Source: Herbidospora daliensis (GTDB lineage Bacteria; Actinomycetota; Actinomycetes; Streptosporangiales; Streptosporangiaceae). Taken from it: a DNA stretch of 64,000 nt. This document shows positions 9,004-19,180 of this stretch, piece after piece. Position 1 is the first letter of the stretch. Every line of letters begins with the position of its first letter. Where the stretch lies: assembly GCF_001570585.1 (NCBI RefSeq), contig NZ_BBXF01000001.1:1171691-1235690 (forward strand), given 5' to 3'. The translations under genes were made by a program, and so were the position numbers. Below the pieces are notes generated by a model. That model was not told the DNA's origin, searched no databases, and worked only from the letters and a program-made list of their open reading frames with translations.

Positions 9004-11442
9004 ATGCAGGAGGTTTTCGTCGGCCGCGAATGCGAGCTGACCTGGCTCGCCACCACCCGGGCGCATGTGGTGGGGATCGACGGCGAACCGGGCATCGGCA
9101 AGACGGCGCTGGCCCGCCGTTTCACCGCGAGCCAGGACCGCCCGGTCTTCTGGGCCGCCGCCGACGAACACGAACCGGAACTGGCCTGGGAGGGCCCCGA
9201 ACCGGTGTTCCGCGACTGCGTCGTGGTGCTCGACGACGCCCACTGGGCCGACCGCGACCAGCTCGGCGCGCTGCGCCTGGCCGTCCGGCGGCGGCCCGAC
9301 GTGTTCGTCGTGGTCGTCGGTGACCTCGAAGCCCTGGGCGACGGCTGGCGCCGCCTGATGACCGAACGGGTCACCCTATCCGGCCTGCCCGCCGCCGACC
9401 TGATCCGGCTGGCCGCCCTGTGCGGGCACCCGGAGCTGTCGGCCGCCGGGGCGGCCCGCCTGCACGAGCACACCGGCGGCCACCCCCTGCACGCCCGCCA
9501 CCTGCTCGACGAGCTCGACCCGCACACCCTGGCCTACGGCGCCGGGCCGCTGCCCGCGCCCCGCTCGGTCGTCACGGCCGTGCGCGACCGCCTGCGGAGA
9601 TGCGCGCCCGAGGTCAGGGCCCTGCTGGAGGCCGGTTCCGTGGAGGGGCGGCGCTGGCCCGCCGACTCCGACGCGGCGGTGGCGACCGGCCTGGTCAGGC
9701 GGACCGGCAAGGGGCTGGAGTTCACCAGCGCGCTGGTCCGCAGCGTGCTCTACCACGACATCCCCGAACCCCGCCGCCGGACCCTGCACGCCCGGCACGA
9801 CTCGCTCCGGCACCGCATCGCCGCCGCCGGCGGCACGCCCGACGAGGCGCTGGCCGCTGACATCGCCCGAGAGGCGACGCGGTTGCAGCGCGACTCCCGC
9901 ACCCAGGAGGCGGCGGTCCTGCTGGCCCAGTCGCTCCCGCTGACCGGCGACCGCGACCTGCGGCTGGCCGCGCTGGAGGCCATGCTGGTGGCCGGCGACC
10001 TGGCCCGCACCCTGCCCTTCCGCGGCTGGCTGGCCGCCGACCGGGGCAGGCGGGGCCGCTACGTGCACGGCTACCAGACGCTGCTGATGGGCCAGGTCGC
10101 CGAGGCGCGGTCGCTGCTGCTGCGGGCGCTCGACCTGCCGCCGGAGGAGGGCCCGGCCGACCTCGACGCCCGGATCGCCAGCCAGCTGGCCGTCATCGGC
10201 GTCGTCACCGTCTCCGACCACGACATGATCACCTACGGGGCGCGGGCGGTCGCGGGCGCGCGCGAACCGTGGGTGGCCGCGTTCGCCTGGTTCGCCCGCG
10301 CGCTCGGCCTGGCCGTCGCCGGACGCGCTGGCGAGGCGCTGGAGCTGCTCACCTCCGCCGACACCCCCGGCGCGCCCGCCGGACTCGACGGCCTGGTGGC
10401 CCGCGGCATGATCCGCCTGTGGCGCGGCGACCTCGACGGCTCGTGCGCCGACCTGCGGCTGGCCGTGCACCGCGCCGCCGAGGGCGAGCCGCTGCGGGTC
10501 GGGCAGGCGCTCGGCTTCCTCGGCGAGGCGCTCTACCGGCGCGGCGAACTGGCCGAGGCGGTGCTGCACACCGAACTCGCCGTCGCCGACGCCCAGGACA
10601 ACGAGCGCGTCTGGGACTACGCCATGCTGCACGCCCAGGCCGCCTACCCGCTGGCCGCGATGGGCGAGTGGGCCCGCGCGGGCGCGCACGCCGAGGAGTC
10701 GGCCCGCTGGGCCCGCGCCACCGGCATCCCCGCCGCCCGCGTCTACGCCGCCGCCGCGGCCATCGCCATCGCGCGGGCCCGCGACGACCCGTCGTGGGCG
10801 CTGGCCGCGTCGACCGACCTGGCCGGGATCTATCCGGCCGGCGAACCGGGCACCCACCTGCTCGGCGCGGTCCGGGAGGAGGCCCTCGCGCAACTGGGCC
10901 GGGCGGGCGATCTGGGCGACGTCCCCGATTTCCCGGACGGCCTGGGCGCCTCCCGGGCCCGCGGGCTGATCGCGACGGCACGCGGCGAACACGAGCGGGC
11001 CCTGGCCTGTTTCGCCGAGGCCCGCGCCCACGCCGCGCCGTTCCCGCTGGAGCGCGCGTTCGTCGACCTCCTCACGGCCCGCTGCCACCTGCTCCGGGGC
11101 CGGGCGAAGGCGGGCGAGCGGGCGCTGCGGGCGGCGTACCGGGAGTTCGAGCGCATCGGCGCCCGCGCCTACCAGGACCTGACCCGCGCCGCCGCCCGCG
11201 AGGCGGGCCTCGTCGTCGACGGCCCCGCGCGCCCCTTCGACGACCTCACCCCGGCGGAACGCGCCGTCGCCGGGCTGGCCTGCGACGGCCTGACCAACCG
11301 GGAGATCGCCGACCGGCTCGTGGTCAGCGTGAAGACGGTCGAGTTCCACCTCGGGCACGTCTTCCGGCGGCTCGACATCTCCTCGCGGCGGGAACTGCGC
11401 GAGCTGGGGTCGACGGCCGGAATTCCCGGGGTCGCACCCTGA
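9004..11442 (+). CDS. LAL-type LuxR transcriptional regulator with STAND ATPase domain
   Basis: 812 residues. The Walker A motif is at residues 27-34 (GEPGIGKT) and a Walker B-like VVLDDAHWAD near 75. A long helical, TPR-like middle follows (about 300-700), and a LuxR/GerE helix-turn-helix closes the protein (about 745-805; LTPAERAVAGLACDGLTNRE). This is the layout of MalT and of the large ATP-binding LuxR regulators often linked to actinomycete metabolite clusters or sugar genes. No Shine-Dalgarno precedes ATG 9004; TTGAAT seven bases upstream would fit a leaderless transcript. The target is unknown. Neighbours are two secreted-protein genes. Confidence 0.85.
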   Translation: MQEVFVGRECELTWLATTRAHVVGIDGEPGIGKTALARRFTASQDRPVFWAAADEHEPELAWEGPEPVFRDCVVVLDDAHWADRDQLGALRLAVRRRPDVFVVVVGDLEALGDGWRRLMTERVTLSGLPAADLIRLAALCGHPELSAAGAARLHEHTGGHPLHARHLLDELDPHTLAYGAGPLPAPRSVVTAVRDRLRRCAPEVRALLEAGSVEGRRWPADSDAAVATGLVRRTGKGLEFTSALVRSVLYHDIPEPRRRTLHARHDSLRHRIAAAGGTPDEALAADIAREATRLQRDSRTQEAAVLLAQSLPLTGDRDLRLAALEAMLVAGDLARTLPFRGWLAADRGRRGRYVHGYQTLLMGQVAEARSLLLRALDLPPEEGPADLDARIASQLAVIGVVTVSDHDMITYGARAVAGAREPWVAAFAWFARALGLAVAGRAGEALELLTSADTPGAPAGLDGLVARGMIRLWRGDLDGSCADLRLAVHRAAEGEPLRVGQALGFLGEALYRRGELAEAVLHTELAVADAQDNERVWDYAMLHAQAAYPLAAMGEWARAGAHAEESARWARATGIPAARVYAAAAAIAIARARDDPSWALAASTDLAGIYPAGEPGTHLLGAVREEALAQLGRAGDLGDVPDFPDGLGASRARGLIATARGEHERALACFAEARAHAAPFPLERAFVDLLTARCHLLRGRAKAGERALRAAYREFERIGARAYQDLTRAAAREAGLVVDGPARPFDDLTPAERAVAGLACDGLTNREIADRLVVSVKTVEFHLGHVFRRLDISSRRELRELGSTAGIPGVAP

Positions 11443-11477
11443 AGCGCGCGGCCCGCGCCCCCGCCTACCCTCGCGCC

Positions 11478-12500
11478 ATGCCGCTGCGCAAAGCGCTCAT
11501 CCTGACACTGACGACGGCGCTGGTCCTGACCCCGTCGACGGCCGGCGCCCACCCGAAACCCACCAACGGCTTCGCGCCGTGGGGCCCGTGGAACCAGAAG
11601 CTCCCCCGCAACGTGCCGCTGGCCCCGAACTCGCAGGCCATCGTCGACAACATCAAACTCGACAAGGAACAGAACTACGGCAGCTGGGCGATCAACACCG
11701 ACGAGTACTCCGCGCCCATCTACTCCGTCGGCCGGCACACCCCCCGCAAACAGTGGCGTTTCTCCGACTGCCTCGGCCTCCCCCACCTGGCCCCGGTCAT
11801 CGCCGACTCGCTGCGCTCGGTCCCCACGCCGGCCGACCTGATCGTCTCGAAGGGCACCGACGCCTCCGTGGCGATCTACCAGCCCTCCACCGACACGTAC
11901 TGGGACTTCTGGCGCGCCGAGAAGGACGCCCTGGGGAACTGGTCGGCCTGCTGGGGCGGCAAGATCGACAACTATTCGCGGAACCCCGGCATCTTCGACA
12001 ACCCCCTCGGCGCGACCGCGACGGGCCTCCCGTTCGGCGCGTTCACGATCCGCATCGAGGAACTCAAGCGGGGCCGCATCGACCACGCGCTGAACATCGT
12101 GACGGTCCGGACGAGGGCGAACTGCAACAGCTGGCCCGCCACCCGCAACGACGGCTTCGTCGAAGGCGCCGACATCCCCTGCGAGGGCCAGCGCTTCCGC
12201 CTCGACCCCGCCTTCGACGTCTCGACCCTGACCTCCCCCGCCGCCCGCACCATCGCGCGGGCGATGCAGGAATACGGCCTGATCATGACCGACAAGGGCG
12301 GCGCACTGGTGACGTACGCCGAAGACCCCCGGCCGTACATGGCCCGCAACGGCGGCGTCGACCCGTACTTCGAGCTCTTCGACCCCGACCACCTGGTGGA
12401 ACCGGACGGCCCGGAGAAGTACTTCGTCCTGTCGGAGATCCCGGTCGAACGCCTCCAGGCGCTGCCGATGGACTACGGCAAGGGCCGCAGCCGGTGGTAG
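11478..12500 (+). CDS. Secreted protein of unknown family
   Basis: 340 residues with a clear signal peptide (basic MPLRK, hydrophobic core, cleavage near AGA-HP at about residue 24). The mature part is rich in aromatic residues and prolines, with four cysteines and motifs such as YWDFWRAEKD and CWGGKIDNYS that suggest a compact beta-rich extracellular domain, perhaps carbohydrate-active. I do not recognise the family. It is separated from the LAL gene by about 35 bases and may be co-transcribed with it. Its 3' end overlaps the convergent lasso B gene by 28 bases. Confidence 0.75.
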   Translation: MPLRKALILTLTTALVLTPSTAGAHPKPTNGFAPWGPWNQKLPRNVPLAPNSQAIVDNIKLDKEQNYGSWAINTDEYSAPIYSVGRHTPRKQWRFSDCLGLPHLAPVIADSLRSVPTPADLIVSKGTDASVAIYQPSTDTYWDFWRAEKDALGNWSACWGGKIDNYSRNPGIFDNPLGATATGLPFGAFTIRIEELKRGRIDHALNIVTVRTRANCNSWPATRNDGFVEGADIPCEGQRFRLDPAFDVSTLTSPAARTIARAMQEYGLIMTDKGGALVTYAEDPRPYMARNGGVDPYFELFDPDHLVEPDGPEKYFVLSEIPVERLQALPMDYGKGRSRW

Positions 12501-13180
12501 GACGGTTCGTCGCCGGTGGTGATGGCTTCTCCGTCGGCCTCGATCCAGGCGTGGAAGGTGTACGGGTCGGGCAGCACGCCGAAGCACCAGTCGGCCCGGC
12601 GTCCTCGCGACCCCGCCCACAACACCGTCGCCAACGAGATCTGCAGGCAGGCCGCCCGGCCGGGGAACCACCCGGCGGCGCGGGAGACGTCGGCGGCCAT
12701 CCGGCGGGCGGTCGCCGGATCGAGGGCCGGCCGGTTGCGCCCCGCCCGTAGGGCGAGCCGGTGGGCGACCTTGAACGGGAAGACCAGCAACACCGCCGCC
12801 AACATGAGGAAGACGGCCGCCCGGGCTCCCGGGCGGCCCGGGGGCCCGGCCGCCATCGGCACGTCGACCGCCTGCGCCCGTCCCGGCCCGGCCGGGACGT
12901 CGCCGGGGGCGGTGACGATCTCGTCCAGCGGGCTCAGGCCGCCCGGCACCAGGCCGACCTGGTGGAGGTCGTCGAGCAGGGCGTCGACGTCGGCGCGCAG
13001 CCGCTCGCCCGGGACGGCCGGATAGCGGGAGGCCAGGGCGCTGACCGCGTCGTCGCGGGTGCCGCCCGAGCTGAGCACGCTCCAGGTCACCATGCCGGGC
13101 GGGTTCAGCACATGGCACTCGCCCGTGCGGACGTCGACCAGGACGAGACCCCGCTCATCGTCGGCCAGTTGGTAGATCAT
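12473..13180 (-). CDS. Lasso peptide leader-binding and protease protein, fused B1-B2
   Basis: 235 residues. The N-terminal part (about 1-85) is a PqqD-like RiPP recognition element, beginning MIYQLADDERGLVLVDVRTG. The C-terminal part (about 110-235) is the transglutaminase-like lasso leader peptidase, with the catalytic Cys in AACLQIS (about 177) and His in FHAWIE (about 209). In many actinobacteria these are two genes (B1 and B2); here they are one polypeptide, as in McjB. It would bind the precursor leader and cut before the core. The start overlaps the cyclase stop by four bases (ATGA), so it is the last gene of the precursor-cyclase-protease operon. Its 3' end runs into the convergent secreted-protein gene. 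Confidence 0.9.
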   Translation of the reverse strand: MIYQLADDERGLVLVDVRTGECHVLNPPGMVTWSVLSSGGTRDDAVSALASRYPAVPGERLRADVDALLDDLHQVGLVPGGLSPLDEIVTAPGDVPAGPGRAQAVDVPMAAGPPGRPGARAAVFLMLAAVLLVFPFKVAHRLALRAGRNRPALDPATARRMAADVSRAAGWFPGRAACLQISLATVLWAGSRGRRADWCFGVLPDPYTFHAWIEADGEAITTGDEPSYHRLRPLP

Positions 13181-15132
13181 CTCCGCAGCCACACCTCCAG
13201 GGCGACCAGCCGCCCGAGCGCGCTCAGGGGGACCGGCGCCCCGGCGTTCAACCGGGTCAGGGTGGTTCTGACGGCGTCCGGGTCGACCACCCCGAGGTCG
13301 GCCAGCCGGGAGTCGTCCAGCAGAGCGGTGATCTGACGGCGGGCCGCGCGGGCGCCCGCGTACTCCTCGGCCTGGTAGGCGCCCTTGGTCCGCCGCCCCA
13401 GAACGCTCTCGGGCACCAGCCCGGCAAGGGCGTCGGCCAGCAGCGGCTTGGCCCTGGACGGGTCGGGAACGGGTTCGGGCCCGTCGAGCACGGCGGCGAT
13501 AACCGCGTCGTCCAGGTAGGGGGCGTGCACCGCCACCCCGAGGCGGTCGCCGAGCGTGCGGAGAAAACGCTGCGCGTCGGCCGCCGACCGCAACGACGCG
13601 AGCGTCGCATGCCGAGCCGGGGTCACCCCAGCCGGGAGCTTCCGAGCCGTCGACGGGTCGGCGGCCACATCGGCCAGCTCGCGCCTGATCCGCGGCGTCA
13701 GCCATCCGGCGGCCTCACCCGCCACACTCCACCAGCCGATGGCATCGGCAGGAGCCGTCCCCGGGCCGGAGGGCCGAACCAGAGACCGGGCCAGCGCACG
13801 GAGCGCCCGGCCATGAGAGGTGGCGGCCAGCCGAGCCGCCCGCACCGCCAGCTCGACCGCCGACGCCTGCCGCAACCGGCTCAACCTGGCACTATGGCTC
13901 ACCCATCTCCGCAGGTCCCCCTGCCTGAACAGAGTGGCGAGATAGGAGGGCGACGGCTGGAACAGCGCGTCGGCGCCTTCCCCGGTGAGATGAACCCTCG
14001 ACCCGCTCCGACGAGCCCAGTCGAGCCGCAACGCCGCCCGCCGATACGCCAGCATGCCTGGCGCCGGCCAGTCGAGCCGAGGCATCGCCAGCCCGAGAAC
14101 CAGGCCACCCCGCTGATGCTCCATCGCGCTCACCCCGGCCGACCCACTCGAACCGGGCCACTCAAGTCCCATCGCCCTCCCGGCCAGGCCACCCGGAGCA
14201 GGCCAAGCGGTTCCCAAAGCACTCAAGTCGCCCGCGCCACCCGAAACGGACTTCGCGCTTCCCAACGCATTCGCCTCAGCCGGGTCATTCGAAGCGTGCC
14301 CCGTGAATTCCAAAGCGCTCGCCCCAGCGAGACCACCCGCATCCCGGCCGGTTCCCGTCGCCGGCAGCGCATGCCCCCGCAGGCCAAGACCAGGCAGGTC
14401 GAACCGGTAAGGGAGGGTGTCCCGGTCTCCGGTGACCACGTTCAGGCGGATGCGGTCGTTCAGGCCCGCCGCCAGCTGGGCCGCGGCCAGGTCGGCCGCT
14501 GGGAGCTCCTCGTGGTGGTAGACGACCGCGTCGACCGGGCCCCCGGCGGCGGCGAGGAAGGCCAGGGAGGTCGAGTCGATGCCGCCGCTGAAGTCGGCGG
14601 TCACTCCCGGGCCGCGCCGGGCGACCGCTTCCGTCAGCGCTTCGCGCAGCGGGCGCACGGGGCCGTGATGGGCATTTTCGTATCGCCCGACATCGGTGTA
14701 GAAGGAACGGCCCATTGTCAGCGGGAGCACATTCGGGCACACGATCTGAATCGCCGCCGAGAGCGGGTCGGGGGTGCGGGAATGGAGTGCGGCCAGGAGG
14801 GTGGCGTGATGGGCGATGAGAGTCTCGTGGCCGCGTACGGAGATATGGAAAGGGAATTGACCCGCGCGGTCGGTGTGCAGCTCGACCCCGGCGGCGGTGG
14901 CGATCACGCAGGAATAGGCGCCGGGCAGCTCGCGGATCGGGGCGGTCCGCAGTTCCCGCTCGGTGGCCGTCAGGTGGCCGAGGAAGACGGCCAGGGCGCC
15001 GTCGCGGTCGACGGCTCTGACCAGGGACGGCGGGGGTGATCCGTAGAGTCTCACCGCCTCGGCGCCGGGGCGGACCGGCTGCCCGGGGAGCCCGGAGCCG
15101 CCGTCTGGGCGGCCGTCGACCAGTCTGATCAG
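13177..15132 (-). CDS. Lasso peptide macrolactam synthetase (asparagine synthetase-like C protein)
   Basis: About 651 residues. It contains the ATP-pyrophosphatase loop in ADFSGGIDSTS (about 180), then TGEGADALF and HAPYLDD, as in asparagine synthetase B and lasso cyclases, which adenylate the ring Asp/Glu and close the macrolactam. The start is unclear: the family-like first strand (GILIRL) directly follows the precursor stop, but the only nearby start is CTG 15132, with GGTGA ten bases upstream. GTG 15054 and ATG 15243 (inside the precursor gene) are alternatives. Residues about 255-358, between the RFDLPGLGLRG strand and MLAYRRAALR, form a Gly/Ala/Ser-rich insertion that I do not expect in this family. 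Confidence 0.88.
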   Translation of the reverse strand: MIRLVDGRPDGGSGLPGQPVRPGAEAVRLYGSPPPSLVRAVDRDGALAVFLGHLTATERELRTAPIRELPGAYSCVIATAAGVELHTDRAGQFPFHISVRGHETLIAHHATLLAALHSRTPDPLSAAIQIVCPNVLPLTMGRSFYTDVGRYENAHHGPVRPLREALTEAVARRGPGVTADFSGGIDSTSLAFLAAAGGPVDAVVYHHEELPAADLAAAQLAAGLNDRIRLNVVTGDRDTLPYRFDLPGLGLRGHALPATGTGRDAGGLAGASALEFTGHASNDPAEANALGSAKSVSGGAGDLSALGTAWPAPGGLAGRAMGLEWPGSSGSAGVSAMEHQRGGLVLGLAMPRLDWPAPGMLAYRRAALRLDWARRSGSRVHLTGEGADALFQPSPSYLATLFRQGDLRRWVSHSARLSRLRQASAVELAVRAARLAATSHGRALRALARSLVRPSGPGTAPADAIGWWSVAGEAAGWLTPRIRRELADVAADPSTARKLPAGVTPARHATLASLRSAADAQRFLRTLGDRLGVAVHAPYLDDAVIAAVLDGPEPVPDPSRAKPLLADALAGLVPESVLGRRTKGAYQAEEYAGARAARRQITALLDDSRLADLGVVDPDAVRTTLTRLNAGAPVPLSALGRLVALEVWLRR

Positions 15133-15142
15133 AATTCCGAAA

Positions 15143-15286
15143 TCACCAGTAATAGTCGGAATTCGCGTCGGCGTTTCCGCTGCTGGAGTTCCCGCCGAAT
15201 AGATCGGTGACCCGGCCGAGGCGGATGAGGGTGGGCGGTTCATAGTCGGGCTCCGGCGAAGGCAGTTCGGGCCCCTCTGCTGACAT
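15143..15286 (-). CDS. Lasso peptide precursor (47 residues)
   Basis: A small gene with AGGTGG six bases before its ATG, immediately before the cyclase gene. The leader contains YEPPTLIRLG, the YxxPxLxxLG motif read by lasso B1 domains. The C-terminal segment GGNSSSGNADANSDYYW looks like a core: Gly start, Asp acceptor, and bulky YYW tail residues able to hold a thread. If the core begins at the second Gly, Asp is at position 9 and gives a nine-residue ring; from the first Gly it would be at 10, outside the usual range. The usual Thr two residues before the cut is absent (Phe or Leu instead), so the exact cut is uncertain. Confidence 0.82.
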   Translation of the reverse strand: MSAEGPELPSPEPDYEPPTLIRLGRVTDLFGGNSSSGNADANSDYYW

Positions 15287-15332
15287 GAATGACCACCTGT
15301 GCCTGTGAAGTGGGATACGGAAGAGACCAGAG

Positions 15333-15350
15333 TGACTCTACCGAGAGTCA
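15333..15350 (-). terminator. Small hairpin between the ROK gene and the lasso precursor
   Basis: A 7-bp stem (TGACTCT / AGAGTCA) with a four-base loop overlaps the ROK stop codon. It may partly separate the regulator transcript from the lasso operon. It is short and lacks a T tract. Confidence 0.35.
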
Positions 15351-16481
15351 GCGGAGATGGCCGATGAGCCCGAGAATCAGCGCCCCGTGGGCGGCGGCGT
15401 CCGGTTGGGCGAACCGGAGTTCCATGTGGCGGGTCCACGCCGAGCGGCGGAGCTCCTGTTCGCACTCCGACGCGACCAGCCGCAGGCCGGGGGCGAGCGG
15501 GCCGCCGAGCACGACCGCCTGGGTCTCCAGGGTGACGGCGCTCTCGCGCAGGGCGCGGGCCAGCCGTTTCGCGGCGGCGGTGAGGGCCCAGCGGCAGTCG
15601 GGGTCGCCCGCGCGGGCACGGGCGACGAGGGCGTCGATCGACGTGGGCGGGTCCTCCCCTCGGGCCCGGAGGCTCACGTACACCCCCTCCAACACCGCCG
15701 GCACGCTGATGTAACGTTCCAAACATCCCCTTTTGCCACACCAGCAGTCGAGGCCGCCGGGCTCGGCCGCGTGGTGGCCCACGCTTCCGGCGCGGCCGAG
15801 CGCGCCGCGCACCATGCGCGGGCCGACGACCAGCCCGCCGAGCACGTGTTCGGCGATCTCGACGTAGAGCAGCGTCTCGTACGGATGGTGGTAGGTCTGC
15901 TCGTTCAGCGCGCCGAGCCGCGCGTCGGCGTCCACGACGACCTTGACCTCGCCGAACCGGGCCGCGAGCCGCCGGTGCAGGTCGGGCGCGGCGAACCAGG
16001 GCGACGGGGGCGAGGGCGACAGGTCGCGCGGGTCGACCGGCCACGGCACGGCCAGCCCGACCGTCGCCAGGTCGGCCGGGCCGCGCCCGATCGAGGCGGC
16101 GAGCCCGGCCACGGCGTCGGCCGTCGCGTCGATCCAGGCGTCGCCGTCGCGCAGGCCCCGTCCGAGCGTGACGAGCCGCACCTGCTCACGCGGCCAGTGG
16201 GGCAGCCGGGCGGCCACGGTGACGTGGCGGGCGCCGACCTGGACGCCGACGGCGACCCCGGTCACCGGCCGCAGCGCGACGGCCTCCTTCTTGCCGCCCT
16301 GGGCGATGCCGTCGTCGAGCAGCCGCTGCACCGCCGTGCTGACCGACGCGATCGACAGGCCGGTGCGCCTGGCGAGCTCGGTGCGCATGCCGGAACGGCA
16401 CATCAGCGCCCTGATGACCTGGAGCACGCTGTCGCTCCTGGCCTCCGGGTCGAGTAGGTCACGTGTCTCGTGCACGGGCAC
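15348..16481 (-). CDS. ROK family transcriptional regulator (NagC/XylR type)
   Basis: 377 residues. The N-terminal winged helix (about 25-80; RTELARRTGLSIASVSTAVQ) is followed by a ROK sugar-kinase-like fold. This keeps the zinc-binding CWCGKRGCLE motif (about 250), which marks the ROK family. Such proteins repress sugar genes and release DNA on binding a sugar or sugar phosphate. It lies 61 bases upstream of the lasso precursor on the same strand and divergently from the 824-residue membrane protein gene, so it could control either. No clear operator palindrome was found by eye in 16482-16705. Confidence 0.88.
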   Translation of the reverse strand: MPVHETRDLLDPEARSDSVLQVIRALMCRSGMRTELARRTGLSIASVSTAVQRLLDDGIAQGGKKEAVALRPVTGVAVGVQVGARHVTVAARLPHWPREQVRLVTLGRGLRDGDAWIDATADAVAGLAASIGRGPADLATVGLAVPWPVDPRDLSPSPPSPWFAAPDLHRRLAARFGEVKVVVDADARLGALNEQTYHHPYETLLYVEIAEHVLGGLVVGPRMVRGALGRAGSVGHHAAEPGGLDCWCGKRGCLERYISVPAVLEGVYVSLRARGEDPPTSIDALVARARAGDPDCRWALTAAAKRLARALRESAVTLETQAVVLGGPLAPGLRLVASECEQELRRSAWTRHMELRFAQPDAAAHGALILGLIGHLR

Positions 16482-16705
16482 CCCGCCGCCGAATTCGAAT
16501 TACGAGTCGTGCCGCCTCGATCGTGACACAGCGAGTTCAGCCCGAAAAGCGATCACACGGTGACATGTCGCCACATCACGGCCTACTTGAGGAGACGCTC
16601 GTGGTGACCACTGAAATTTGAAATTCCGTGATATCGATGGCCGATCCCCTGCGACGCACAGTAGGTTCCCGGTTACATTGCGCGTGCGACTAGGTGGGGA
16701 ATGTC

Positions 16706-19180
16706 GTGCAGAATCCCTTTTGGGCGCCGGAAAACGGGCCGCTTCCGCGCGGCGTTCATCTCCTGGCCATGCAGCTCGACGCGGTCATCGCCACCCGGCC
16801 GCGCCGGTCGATGCCGCCCGCGCTGCTGCTCGGCGGTCCGGCCGCCGGGGCGATCGTAGCCGGTTACCGCGAGCGGCTGGTCGACCGGCGGCTCGGGCGG
16901 CGGAACGTCAGCCTGGTCCCCCACGCGCTGCTCACCGACGAGGTGGCCGGCGCGCCGGAGCCGCACGTGCGGATCGTGCTCGACCTGGCCGACCGTTTGC
17001 ACGAGACGATGCCGCAGGGCAGCGGCGCCCTGCGGCTGCCGTTGTTGCGGACCTGCGAGGCCGTGCTGGGCGCGCCCGCGACCGGCGGCGACCCGGCGGC
17101 CCGGCGCAGGGCGCTGCGCGACCGGCTCTACGAGGAGCTGACCCTCCGGCGTCCGTGGCTCGGTCACGCGCAGCGGGCCGCTTCGCACACCGGGCAGGGC
17201 GTCTCGCTCGCCGCCGTCGCGCAGGCCGTGCTGCAGGTGTTCGTCGTGGTGTTCCCCCGCTGGGTGTACGGCCTCTGGTTGTCGCGGCGGTCGATGCACT
17301 GGGCCGGGGAACTCCTGGAGGCCCCCGACCGCCGGTTCCCGCACGCCGCGCTGGAGCTCACCGAGGGCGGCGGGCTGCGCGGCAACACGGCGCTGGTCCA
17401 GGAGCTGCTGGTGACCGCGCTGCTGCGGGACCTCGACCAGGCCGCGCGGCCGTCGCGGTTCTGGGTCCACCGGGCGCGGCGGCGCTGGTCGTTCGTGGTG
17501 CTGCTCGGCACGGTCGGGGGCGCCGACTCGCCGTGCAAGGTGCTGCTCGACACCTTCGAGCGGGCCGCGTCCAAGGGAGCGCAGGCGCCGCTCCTGGTGC
17601 TGGGCGCGCTCACCGCCGAACCGCCGTCGGTCGCGGCCGCGCTCACGGCGGCCGACGTCGCCGAGCTCTACCACCGTCCCGGCCGGCGCGTGTACGCCCT
17701 CCCGCTGCCCGAAGAGGAGGACGACGGCGCCGCCCGGCAGTGGTTCGAGACCAACCTCCGGGTCCACCCCCGGCCCGCCGCCCGAGCCGACTACGTGCGC
17801 GCGACCGCCCCGGTGGCCGCGCTGCTGCTGGTGGCGGCCGCGGTGCCGGTCTACGTGTGGGGTCCCGGCGGGTGCCGGGCCGTCGAGGGCGGGGAGGTCG
17901 TCGGCGTCACCGACGGCGCCGAGTGCAGCCTCGCCCCGCCCGGCCCCGAAGGCGACCAACTGCGGGAGCTGGAGCGGCTGGCGGCGGCCCACAACGCGGC
18001 GGTCGACCTGAGCGAGCCCCACCGGACCACGGTCTTCTTCGCCCCCGTCACGGTCCGGGACGGTTCGGGCAACACCACGCTGAACGGCGTCCAGAGCCTG
18101 CGCGGGGTGCTGGTCGCGCTGGCCGAGGTCAACGCGAGCCCCGGCGTGAACCACATGCGCCAGCGCATTCTCATCGCCAACCCGGGCGACGCGTTCGCCC
18201 ACGGGACCGAGGTCGCCCGGATGATCCTCGAACGGGCGGCCCGCGACCGAATCTCCGCCGTGGTGGGCGTCACGCAGAGCCGCCCGGCCGCGCTCGAAGC
18301 CGTGGCGACGCTCAGCGACGGCAAGATCCCGGTGATCGGGAGCTCCGTCACGGGCAGCGCGATGGTGGAGGGCCCGGGCGCGCCGACCCGCTACGTCCAG
18401 GTGTCGCCGTCGAACGGCCAGGTCTCCGCGATCACGGCGGAGTTCGTCCGGTCCCGGAAGGCCACCACGCTGATCCTCGTCGCCCACCCCGACGACGAGG
18501 TGTTCAGCGTCGACCTGGCCGACAAGGTGGCGGCCCGCTTCACGGCCGCCCGCACGGTCCGCGTCGACTACTCCGAGTTCGGCCAGGACCACACCGCCGA
18601 CGACGCGGCCCGGCGCATCTGCGCGCGGGCCGTCCAAGCCGGCGCCTTCGTCGTGTACGCGGGCCGTTCGGCCCGGTTGATGGAGCTGCTGAACGCCATG
18701 CGCGGCCGGTCGGGCTGCACCCGCGCCGACGGCGGCCGCTTCGGCTTCCTGGCCGAGGCCATGCCGAGCGAGTACCTCGACGACCCGGCCCGGCTCACCA
18801 CCGGCTACCCGTTCGCGGAGTTCTCCCGCATCTCGTTCTCGCCCGACGTGGACCGGCCGAGGCCGCACCACTTCGTCCGGAGCTTCCCTGCCTACTTCGC
18901 CTCCCGTGGCCTGCCCGCCCACGTCCCGAACAGCGACGCCGCGGGCGCCTACGACGCGGTGATGGTCGCCGCCAAGGCCACCGACGGCGCGTTCGCCGAC
19001 GAGGCGCCCGACGAGGACTTCCCCGCCAACGCCGTCTACACCTGGCTGATGGAACCGGGTGTACGGGACCTGAACGGCGCGACCGGCGGCATCACGCTGA
19101 ACCGCGAGAACCGCTACCCCGCCCACCGGACCCTGTACGTCCTGGGCCCGCATCCCTTCGAGTACGACGTCCACCCCTGA
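16706..19180 (+). CDS. Membrane protein: cytoplasmic domain, one TM helix, periplasmic-binding-like domain
   Basis: 824 residues from GTG 16706, chosen because AGGTGGGGA lies five bases upstream; GTG 16694 is also in frame. The N-terminal 365 residues are Arg/Leu-rich and helical, and I see no P-loop. One hydrophobic segment (about 369-386) precedes an extracellular part of about 430 residues. That part resembles type 1 periplasmic-binding (LIV-type) proteins: TTVFFAPVT near its start, alternating strands such as ISAVVGVTQS and TLILVAHPDD, and GAYDAVMVAAKA near the end. It may be a one-helix receptor that couples an outside ligand to the cytoplasmic domain. No transporter genes are adjacent, so a plain ABC uptake role is unlikely. 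Confidence 0.75.
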   Translation: MQNPFWAPENGPLPRGVHLLAMQLDAVIATRPRRSMPPALLLGGPAAGAIVAGYRERLVDRRLGRRNVSLVPHALLTDEVAGAPEPHVRIVLDLADRLHETMPQGSGALRLPLLRTCEAVLGAPATGGDPAARRRALRDRLYEELTLRRPWLGHAQRAASHTGQGVSLAAVAQAVLQVFVVVFPRWVYGLWLSRRSMHWAGELLEAPDRRFPHAALELTEGGGLRGNTALVQELLVTALLRDLDQAARPSRFWVHRARRRWSFVVLLGTVGGADSPCKVLLDTFERAASKGAQAPLLVLGALTAEPPSVAAALTAADVAELYHRPGRRVYALPLPEEEDDGAARQWFETNLRVHPRPAARADYVRATAPVAALLLVAAAVPVYVWGPGGCRAVEGGEVVGVTDGAECSLAPPGPEGDQLRELERLAAAHNAAVDLSEPHRTTVFFAPVTVRDGSGNTTLNGVQSLRGVLVALAEVNASPGVNHMRQRILIANPGDAFAHGTEVARMILERAARDRISAVVGVTQSRPAALEAVATLSDGKIPVIGSSVTGSAMVEGPGAPTRYVQVSPSNGQVSAITAEFVRSRKATTLILVAHPDDEVFSVDLADKVAARFTAARTVRVDYSEFGQDHTADDAARRICARAVQAGAFVVYAGRSARLMELLNAMRGRSGCTRADGGRFGFLAEAMPSEYLDDPARLTTGYPFAEFSRISFSPDVDRPRPHHFVRSFPAYFASRGLPAHVPNSDAAGAYDAVMVAAKATDGAFADEAPDEDFPANAVYTWLMEPGVRDLNGATGGITLNRENRYPAHRTLYVLGPHPFEYDVHP

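Follow-up and report, generated by a model that had tools for sequence, protein, structure and literature searches.

The window, a stretch of 64,000 nucleotides from Herbidospora daliensis, carries on its minus strand a lasso peptide locus in which the cyclase gene (C) probably starts at an ATG lying within the precursor gene (A) but in its +1 frame; the DNA of the peptide core would then be used twice, once for a predicted 16-residue product and once for part of the cyclase. The genes follow each other in the order ROK-family regulator, A, C and fused B (Table 1). By kind, the assignment to lasso peptide biosynthesis is well supported, whereas the product and its threading are predicted. A preceding sequence-only reading had proposed a lasso locus composed of a 47-residue precursor, a cyclase and a fused leader-binding/protease gene, and family matches together with conservation among congeners bear this out. 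Its count of three biosynthetic genes holds for A, C and fused B, with the ROK-type regulator as a fourth conserved neighbor. It had also placed the precursor directly before the cyclase: the two are indeed adjacent, but they do not simply succeed one another, as a canonical start for the cyclase is lacking immediately behind the precursor stop and its translation most likely begins within the precursor gene.

Table 1. Features of the lasso peptide locus (positions in the window)
Feature	Positions	Strand	Description
ROK-family regulator	15348..16481	-	upstream of A; PF00480, 100 bits
Inverted repeat TGACTCT-CGGT-AGAGTCA at the ROK stop	15333..15350	-	arms intact in 6/7 species by eye
Putative ribosome-binding site of A, AGGTGG	15293..15298	-	from sequence context
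Precursor gene A	15143..15286	-	47 aa + stop; leader 15194-15286, predicted core GNSSSGNADANSDYYW 15146-15193
Putative ribosome-binding site of C, GGAG	15251..15254	-	7 nt before internal ATG; 7/7 species
Cyclase gene C	13177..15243	-	688 aa from the presumed start at the internal ATG; PF00733, NF033561
Out-of-frame A/C overlap, 101 nt	15143..15243	-	half of A leader and whole A core; C residues 1-33 if C starts at the internal ATG
Length-variable insert in C (residues 280-389)	14077..14406	-	predicted disordered
Fused B	12473..13180	-	PqqD/RRE residues 12-78, protease residues 127-234; ATG overlaps C stop (ATGA)

The precursor matches the NCBIfam lasso leader model NF033521 at 19.0 bits against a cut-off of 19, and of the two matches to this model in the 8.5 Mb H. 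daliensis genome it is the only one over the cut-off. All six congeners searched carry A at 89-100% identity and the C-terminal 17 residues are identical in all seven Herbidospora species, so the reading frame is not a chance occurrence. The same search returned five weak matches (E 0.0076-0.087) in the other 93 genomes. Homologous precursors beside homologous cyclases, the lack of which had been named in advance as an argument against the locus, were found in the six congeners and at eight further loci in other actinomycetes.

In alignments with relatives (10 rows and 8 rows), the precursor residues Gly32 and Asp40 do not vary. In lasso peptides, core residue 1 is joined to an Asp or Glu at positions 7-9, and a core starting at Gly32 offers Gly1 and Asp9. 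With this start, residues Y15, P18 and L20 of the leader become Tyr(-17), Pro(-14) and Leu(-12); of the YxxPxLxxLG motif claimed for the leader, YxxPxL is thus present at this spacing. The same numbering is given for the BsfA leader in the accessible part of PMC10368454, and because the spacings coincide, the core is most likely GNSSSGNADANSDYYW, which starts at the second Gly and comprises 16 residues with a predicted Gly1-Asp9 ring and the tail ANSDYYW. The calculated [M+H]+ of its lasso form is 1689.641 and the [M+2H]2+ 845.324; the 17-residue form would give 1746.663. Relative to the earlier reading the core start moves by one residue: a 17-residue core from the first Gly would disrupt the -17/-14/-12 spacing and require a ring of 10 residues, and was rejected on these grounds. 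The six core strings searched in PMC papers, a set outside which most subscription papers lie, gave no match (two strings derived from this core, four from relatives).

Position -2 of the leader is Phe rather than Thr in all seven Herbidospora species; the eight subfamily relatives have Thr (five), Ala (two) or Val (one). According to the accessible part of PMC10368454, Thr(-2) occurs in all earlier reported precursors, Ile(-2) has been validated, and predicted Ile, Val and Ala at this position are cited; a word search of the text of that paper found no word beginning with 'Phe'. We regard Thr(-2) as usual, with published exceptions, and not as defining; Phe(-2) nevertheless weighs against the present interpretation, as does the borderline NF033521 score.

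The cyclase matches PF00733 (Asn-synthetase-like) at 91.8 bits (cut-off 21), and the proteins of the six congeners share 72-84% identity with it. Its structure was modeled with AlphaFold from 11 sequences; in this model of modest quality (mean pLDDT 61.3, pTM 0.60) the fold matches beta-lactam synthetase and AsnB, as is expected of a lasso cyclase. A sequence search of the PDB with the C profile gave no matches. Residues 280-389 form an insert whose length varies across the seven Herbidospora species: 110 residues in H. daliensis and 61, 40, 34, 18, 11 and 10 in the others. Degenerate copies of the neighboring DWPAPG segment occur within this insert, for which disorder is predicted, and it probably grew by local duplication.

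Both domains proposed for the fused leader-binding/protease gene are found in a single protein: PF05402 (PqqD/RRE) at 49.8 bits against 23.4 and PF13471 (transglutaminase-like protease) at 73.6 against 26. The B2-type cysteine protease model NF033537 is matched at 77.2 bits (cut-off 33), and a phmmer search of the PDB with B gave no matches. The protein is likewise fused in the four Pseudonocardiaceae loci, L097 and L115, and split in L098, L050, L101 and L104, all of which belong to other lasso groups; the B gene of L113 is cut by a contig end, and that of L114 was matched in its C-terminal half only. Fusion was dropped as a claim to novelty, since albusnodin has been described with one B gene.

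The evidence for the internal start of C comes from the comparison of the seven Herbidospora species. None of them has an ATG, GTG or TTG in the C frame immediately behind the A stop. The sole canonical start common to all seven, in a stretch reaching from 60 codons upstream of it to 110 codons downstream, is the ATG inside the A leader, which is formed by A codons 15-16 (TAT GAA/GAG, the Tyr being that of YEPP) and is preceded by GGAG in every species. An in-frame stop 14 codons upstream of this ATG in H. mongoliensis means that C must start downstream of the stop in that species. Directly after the A stop, a comparison of 16 codons in 21 species pairs gives pN/pS values of 0.30 for the C frame and of 2.52 and 1.17 for the two others; this coding constraint indicates that translation in the C frame begins before that point. 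A start of this kind with a Shine-Dalgarno sequence arises by chance in 1.65% of back-translations using local codon usage, a figure to be read with the relatedness of the seven species in mind. The synonymous rate of A within the overlap (0.180) is below the lowest value (0.228) among 36 partly overlapping 33-codon windows of C. We take this as supporting evidence only, because A codons 1-14, outside the overlap, show a still lower rate of 0.055. C residues 1-33, exactly those coded wholly inside A, have pLDDT below 50 in the model, in which the first strand spans residues 36-42. With a pN/pS of 1.96 in the C frame, this N-terminal tail shows no conservation of its own.

All eight subfamily relatives have a canonical start of C positioned no earlier than the A stop: in L113 the two overlap as GTGA, and in L066, at the other extreme, the start lies 51 nt downstream; L115 has an ATG after the A stop plus an in-frame GTG inside A. 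We infer that the ancestor of Herbidospora lost the old start through a frame change at the A/C junction and that the internal ATG replaced it. A junction hairpin was considered as a conserved control element and rejected: its stem is 9 bp in H. daliensis, where folding is no better than in shuffled sequences (z -0.96), and about 4 bp by eye in H. cretacea. The inverted repeat at the ROK stop may serve as an operator or act as a weak terminator.

Alternatively, the internal ATG might be incidental and C might start by stop-restart coupling beyond the A stop, using CTG at codon 38 or ATT as a non-standard start codon. Codon 38 of C is CTG in all seven species, and L113 has its GTGA stop-start overlap at the same place. 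We nevertheless consider this improbable: the start would be non-standard though an ATG with a Shine-Dalgarno sequence is present in all seven species, CTG38 falls within the first predicted strand of the model, and ATT is missing at the TIT position in H. cretacea and H. mongoliensis. The absence of a C start at the usual place could also be a sign of a decaying cluster that makes no lasso peptide, a view with which the atypical Phe(-2), the large disordered insert of the H. daliensis cyclase and the lack of a transporter among seven proteins in and near the locus that were scanned with Pfam and NCBIfam would agree. Against it, A, C and B are open in all seven species, purifying selection acts on both C (pN 0.124, pS 0.329) and B (pN 0.094, pS 0.281), and no core residue changes across species. 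The SGGIDS motif of C is moreover invariant in the seven Herbidospora rows, and Cys178 and His210 of B are kept in 11 of 11 rows, which makes decay very unlikely. Hardly any credence is due to the idea that C starts in the ancestral frame, at the GTG that shares bases with the A stop (TGGTGA), and that a ribosomal frameshift then leads into the C frame: GTGA occurs in all seven species and is an in-frame start in L113, but the GTG is forced by TGG (Trp), so its conservation is not informative, a base-by-base comparison of three species shows the GTG frame closing after 5-6 codons, and no slippery-type repeat is seen there by eye.

With the start of C inside A, one stretch of DNA would code both for half of the leader plus the entire core and for an N-terminal cyclase tail of 33 residues predicted to be disordered. 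Translation of C would depend on initiation within a gene that is already being translated, which would keep C below A, that is, the enzyme below its substrate, and B would be coupled to C through the ATGA overlap. By analogy with the respective families, the RRE half of B would bind the YxxPxL leader and its protease half would cut before Gly32, whereupon C would activate the side chain of Asp9 with ATP and join it to Gly1 around the tail to give the 16-residue lasso peptide.

The regulator next to A matches PF00480 (100 bits against 22.9) and has an N-terminal winged helix (PF13412, 23 against 21.9). A ROK gene adjoins the cluster in the six Herbidospora loci fetched, in four of four Pseudonocardiaceae loci and in four of four subfamily loci from the genus of genome G174; with H. 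daliensis, where it was identified by Pfam, this amounts to 15 of 15. None was found beside nine other lasso loci with the two ROK queries used. The linkage test covered 23 loci at E <=1e-8, with L052-L058, L099, L100, L105 and L106 lying outside it. The gene points the same way as the cluster in Herbidospora and in the genus of G174, and is divergent from it in Pseudonocardiaceae. A tree built from 12 linked ROKs (including three of the six congeners) and 26 unlinked ROKs of the H. daliensis genome unites the linked proteins in one group with 100/99 support, within which the Herbidospora branch is long (1.56). The unlinked set derives from 27 of the 29 own-genome match loci, one of the 27 being the copy of the locus itself. 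Reciprocal best hits, tried as a test of orthology, did not connect the linked ROKs: for those of L066 and L114, the H. daliensis protein ranks third among the 29 matches in its own genome, which speaks against simple orthology. The protein keeps CxCGxxGCxE, and has GSVGHH and DADARL where the ROK of L097 has GEIGH and DNDANL. Given the functions that we presume for these motifs, the alterations suggest that the H. daliensis ROK may no longer bind sugar.

The wider subfamily was delimited by several searches. A cyclase-alignment scan of named genomes recovered ten loci, six of them in Herbidospora (H. galbida, H. solisilvae, H. sakaeratensis, H. yilanensis, H. mongoliensis and H. cretacea) and four in others; 22 of 394 genomes of the class and six of 295 genomes of the genus of G174 gave a match. 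The cores of the closer relatives are GSSPNGNADANAQYYW (L097), GSSSSGTADANSHYYW (L113), GSSPSGSADANAQYYY (L114) and GSSPSGCADANAQYYY (L115), and the closest members of the subfamily share the core type G[NS]SxxGxADANxxYY[WY]. L116 and L117, the other two matches in the G174 genus, lie outside the subfamily, and a motif search in L117 found no precursor. Looser cores, GNANGSGDESAQRYN, GVNGTTYEDNNKQTYD, GSGSGNSDANGQEYS and GSASGSSDANGQSYH, are found in Actinocrispum, Kibdelosporangium and two Actinophytocola, which we take to be Pseudonocardiaceae. The leader of L068 is atypical, and the start assigned to it is provisional. Another lasso group, consisting of L050, L051, L098, L099, L100 and L101, has cores ending in [AT]AD[MT]N[TV]A[RK]Y[NY]; position -2 of the L050 leader is Ile, and no ROK gene was found in L050, L051, L098 and L101.

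The lasso locus type is already known, as is the A-C-B order with one B gene, which occurs in albusnodin from Streptomyces albus as A-C-B-T in the accessible parts of PMC8498205 and PMC9266682. The likeness extends to the cyclases, which match the albusnodin-named model NF033561 in 19 of 19 rows, but the H. daliensis protein misses its cut-off of 300 with 249 bits. Core residue 10 is Ala here, whereas albusnodin has a conserved, acetylated Lys10 (PMC9266682, accessible part). No acetyltransferase, which the albusnodin family possesses, was found among the seven neighboring proteins scanned, and NF033525 gave no match to A at E up to 1. The ROK gene and the A/C overlap further set the present locus apart. 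With BsfA from Bradymonas sediminis, as described in the accessible part of PMC10368454, it shares the spacing of the YxxPxL leader and a residue other than Thr at -2; the residue there, however, is Ile instead of Phe, and split B1/B2 and a kinase are present in place of a fused B and no kinase. Overprinted bacterial genes, such as the E. coli cases in the partly accessible literature, similarly use a second frame within an existing gene, but here an old enzyme gene would have acquired its N-terminal tail from a gene on the same strand that encodes the very peptide on which the enzyme acts.

Among the literature matches listed, none reports a RiPP precursor core doubly coded as its own modifying enzyme, and no PMC paper combines 'lasso peptide', 'ROK family' and 'transcriptional regulator', most subscription papers lying outside that set. 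As far as these listings reach, the out-of-frame overlap doubly coding a lasso core looks new, and so does a subfamily tied to ROK genes in which the cores hardly vary; two PMC papers mention lasso peptides together with Herbidospora. If the internal start is real, the entire core of a RiPP precursor doubles, in another frame, as coding sequence of the enzyme that modifies it, and the locus is an example of a cyclase outliving the loss of its start codon. It would then also suggest a way to set the ratio of substrate to enzyme, and gene callers may mis-start such cyclases or miss their precursors. A defined biological role is suggested by the link to one ROK clade and by the near-fixed core, which also provide a lead for switching the cluster on. 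More speculatively, and with low probability, the peptide might be a genus-wide signal and not a weapon: the core is frozen, the ROK clade travels with it and might read the peptide or its making, and a doubly coded core would tie any change of the peptide to expression of the enzyme.

The surroundings of the locus are partly conserved as well. A convergent plus-strand gene at 11465-12500 (345 aa from the chosen start), the last 28 nt of which overlap the end of B on the opposite strand, is kept at 71-86% in all six congener loci; with E up to 1, neither Pfam nor NCBIfam gave a match to its protein. The plus-strand gene at 9004-11442, which encodes a LuxR-type regulator with an ATPase-like N-terminus, adjoins the locus in all six congeners at 83-97% identity, in one case cut by a contig end. 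Divergent to the ROK gene, the plus-strand gene at 16694-19180 is found in four of the six congener loci; the C-terminal part of its product resembles periplasmic binding proteins (PF13458, 46.9 bits), and the long N-terminal part gave no match.
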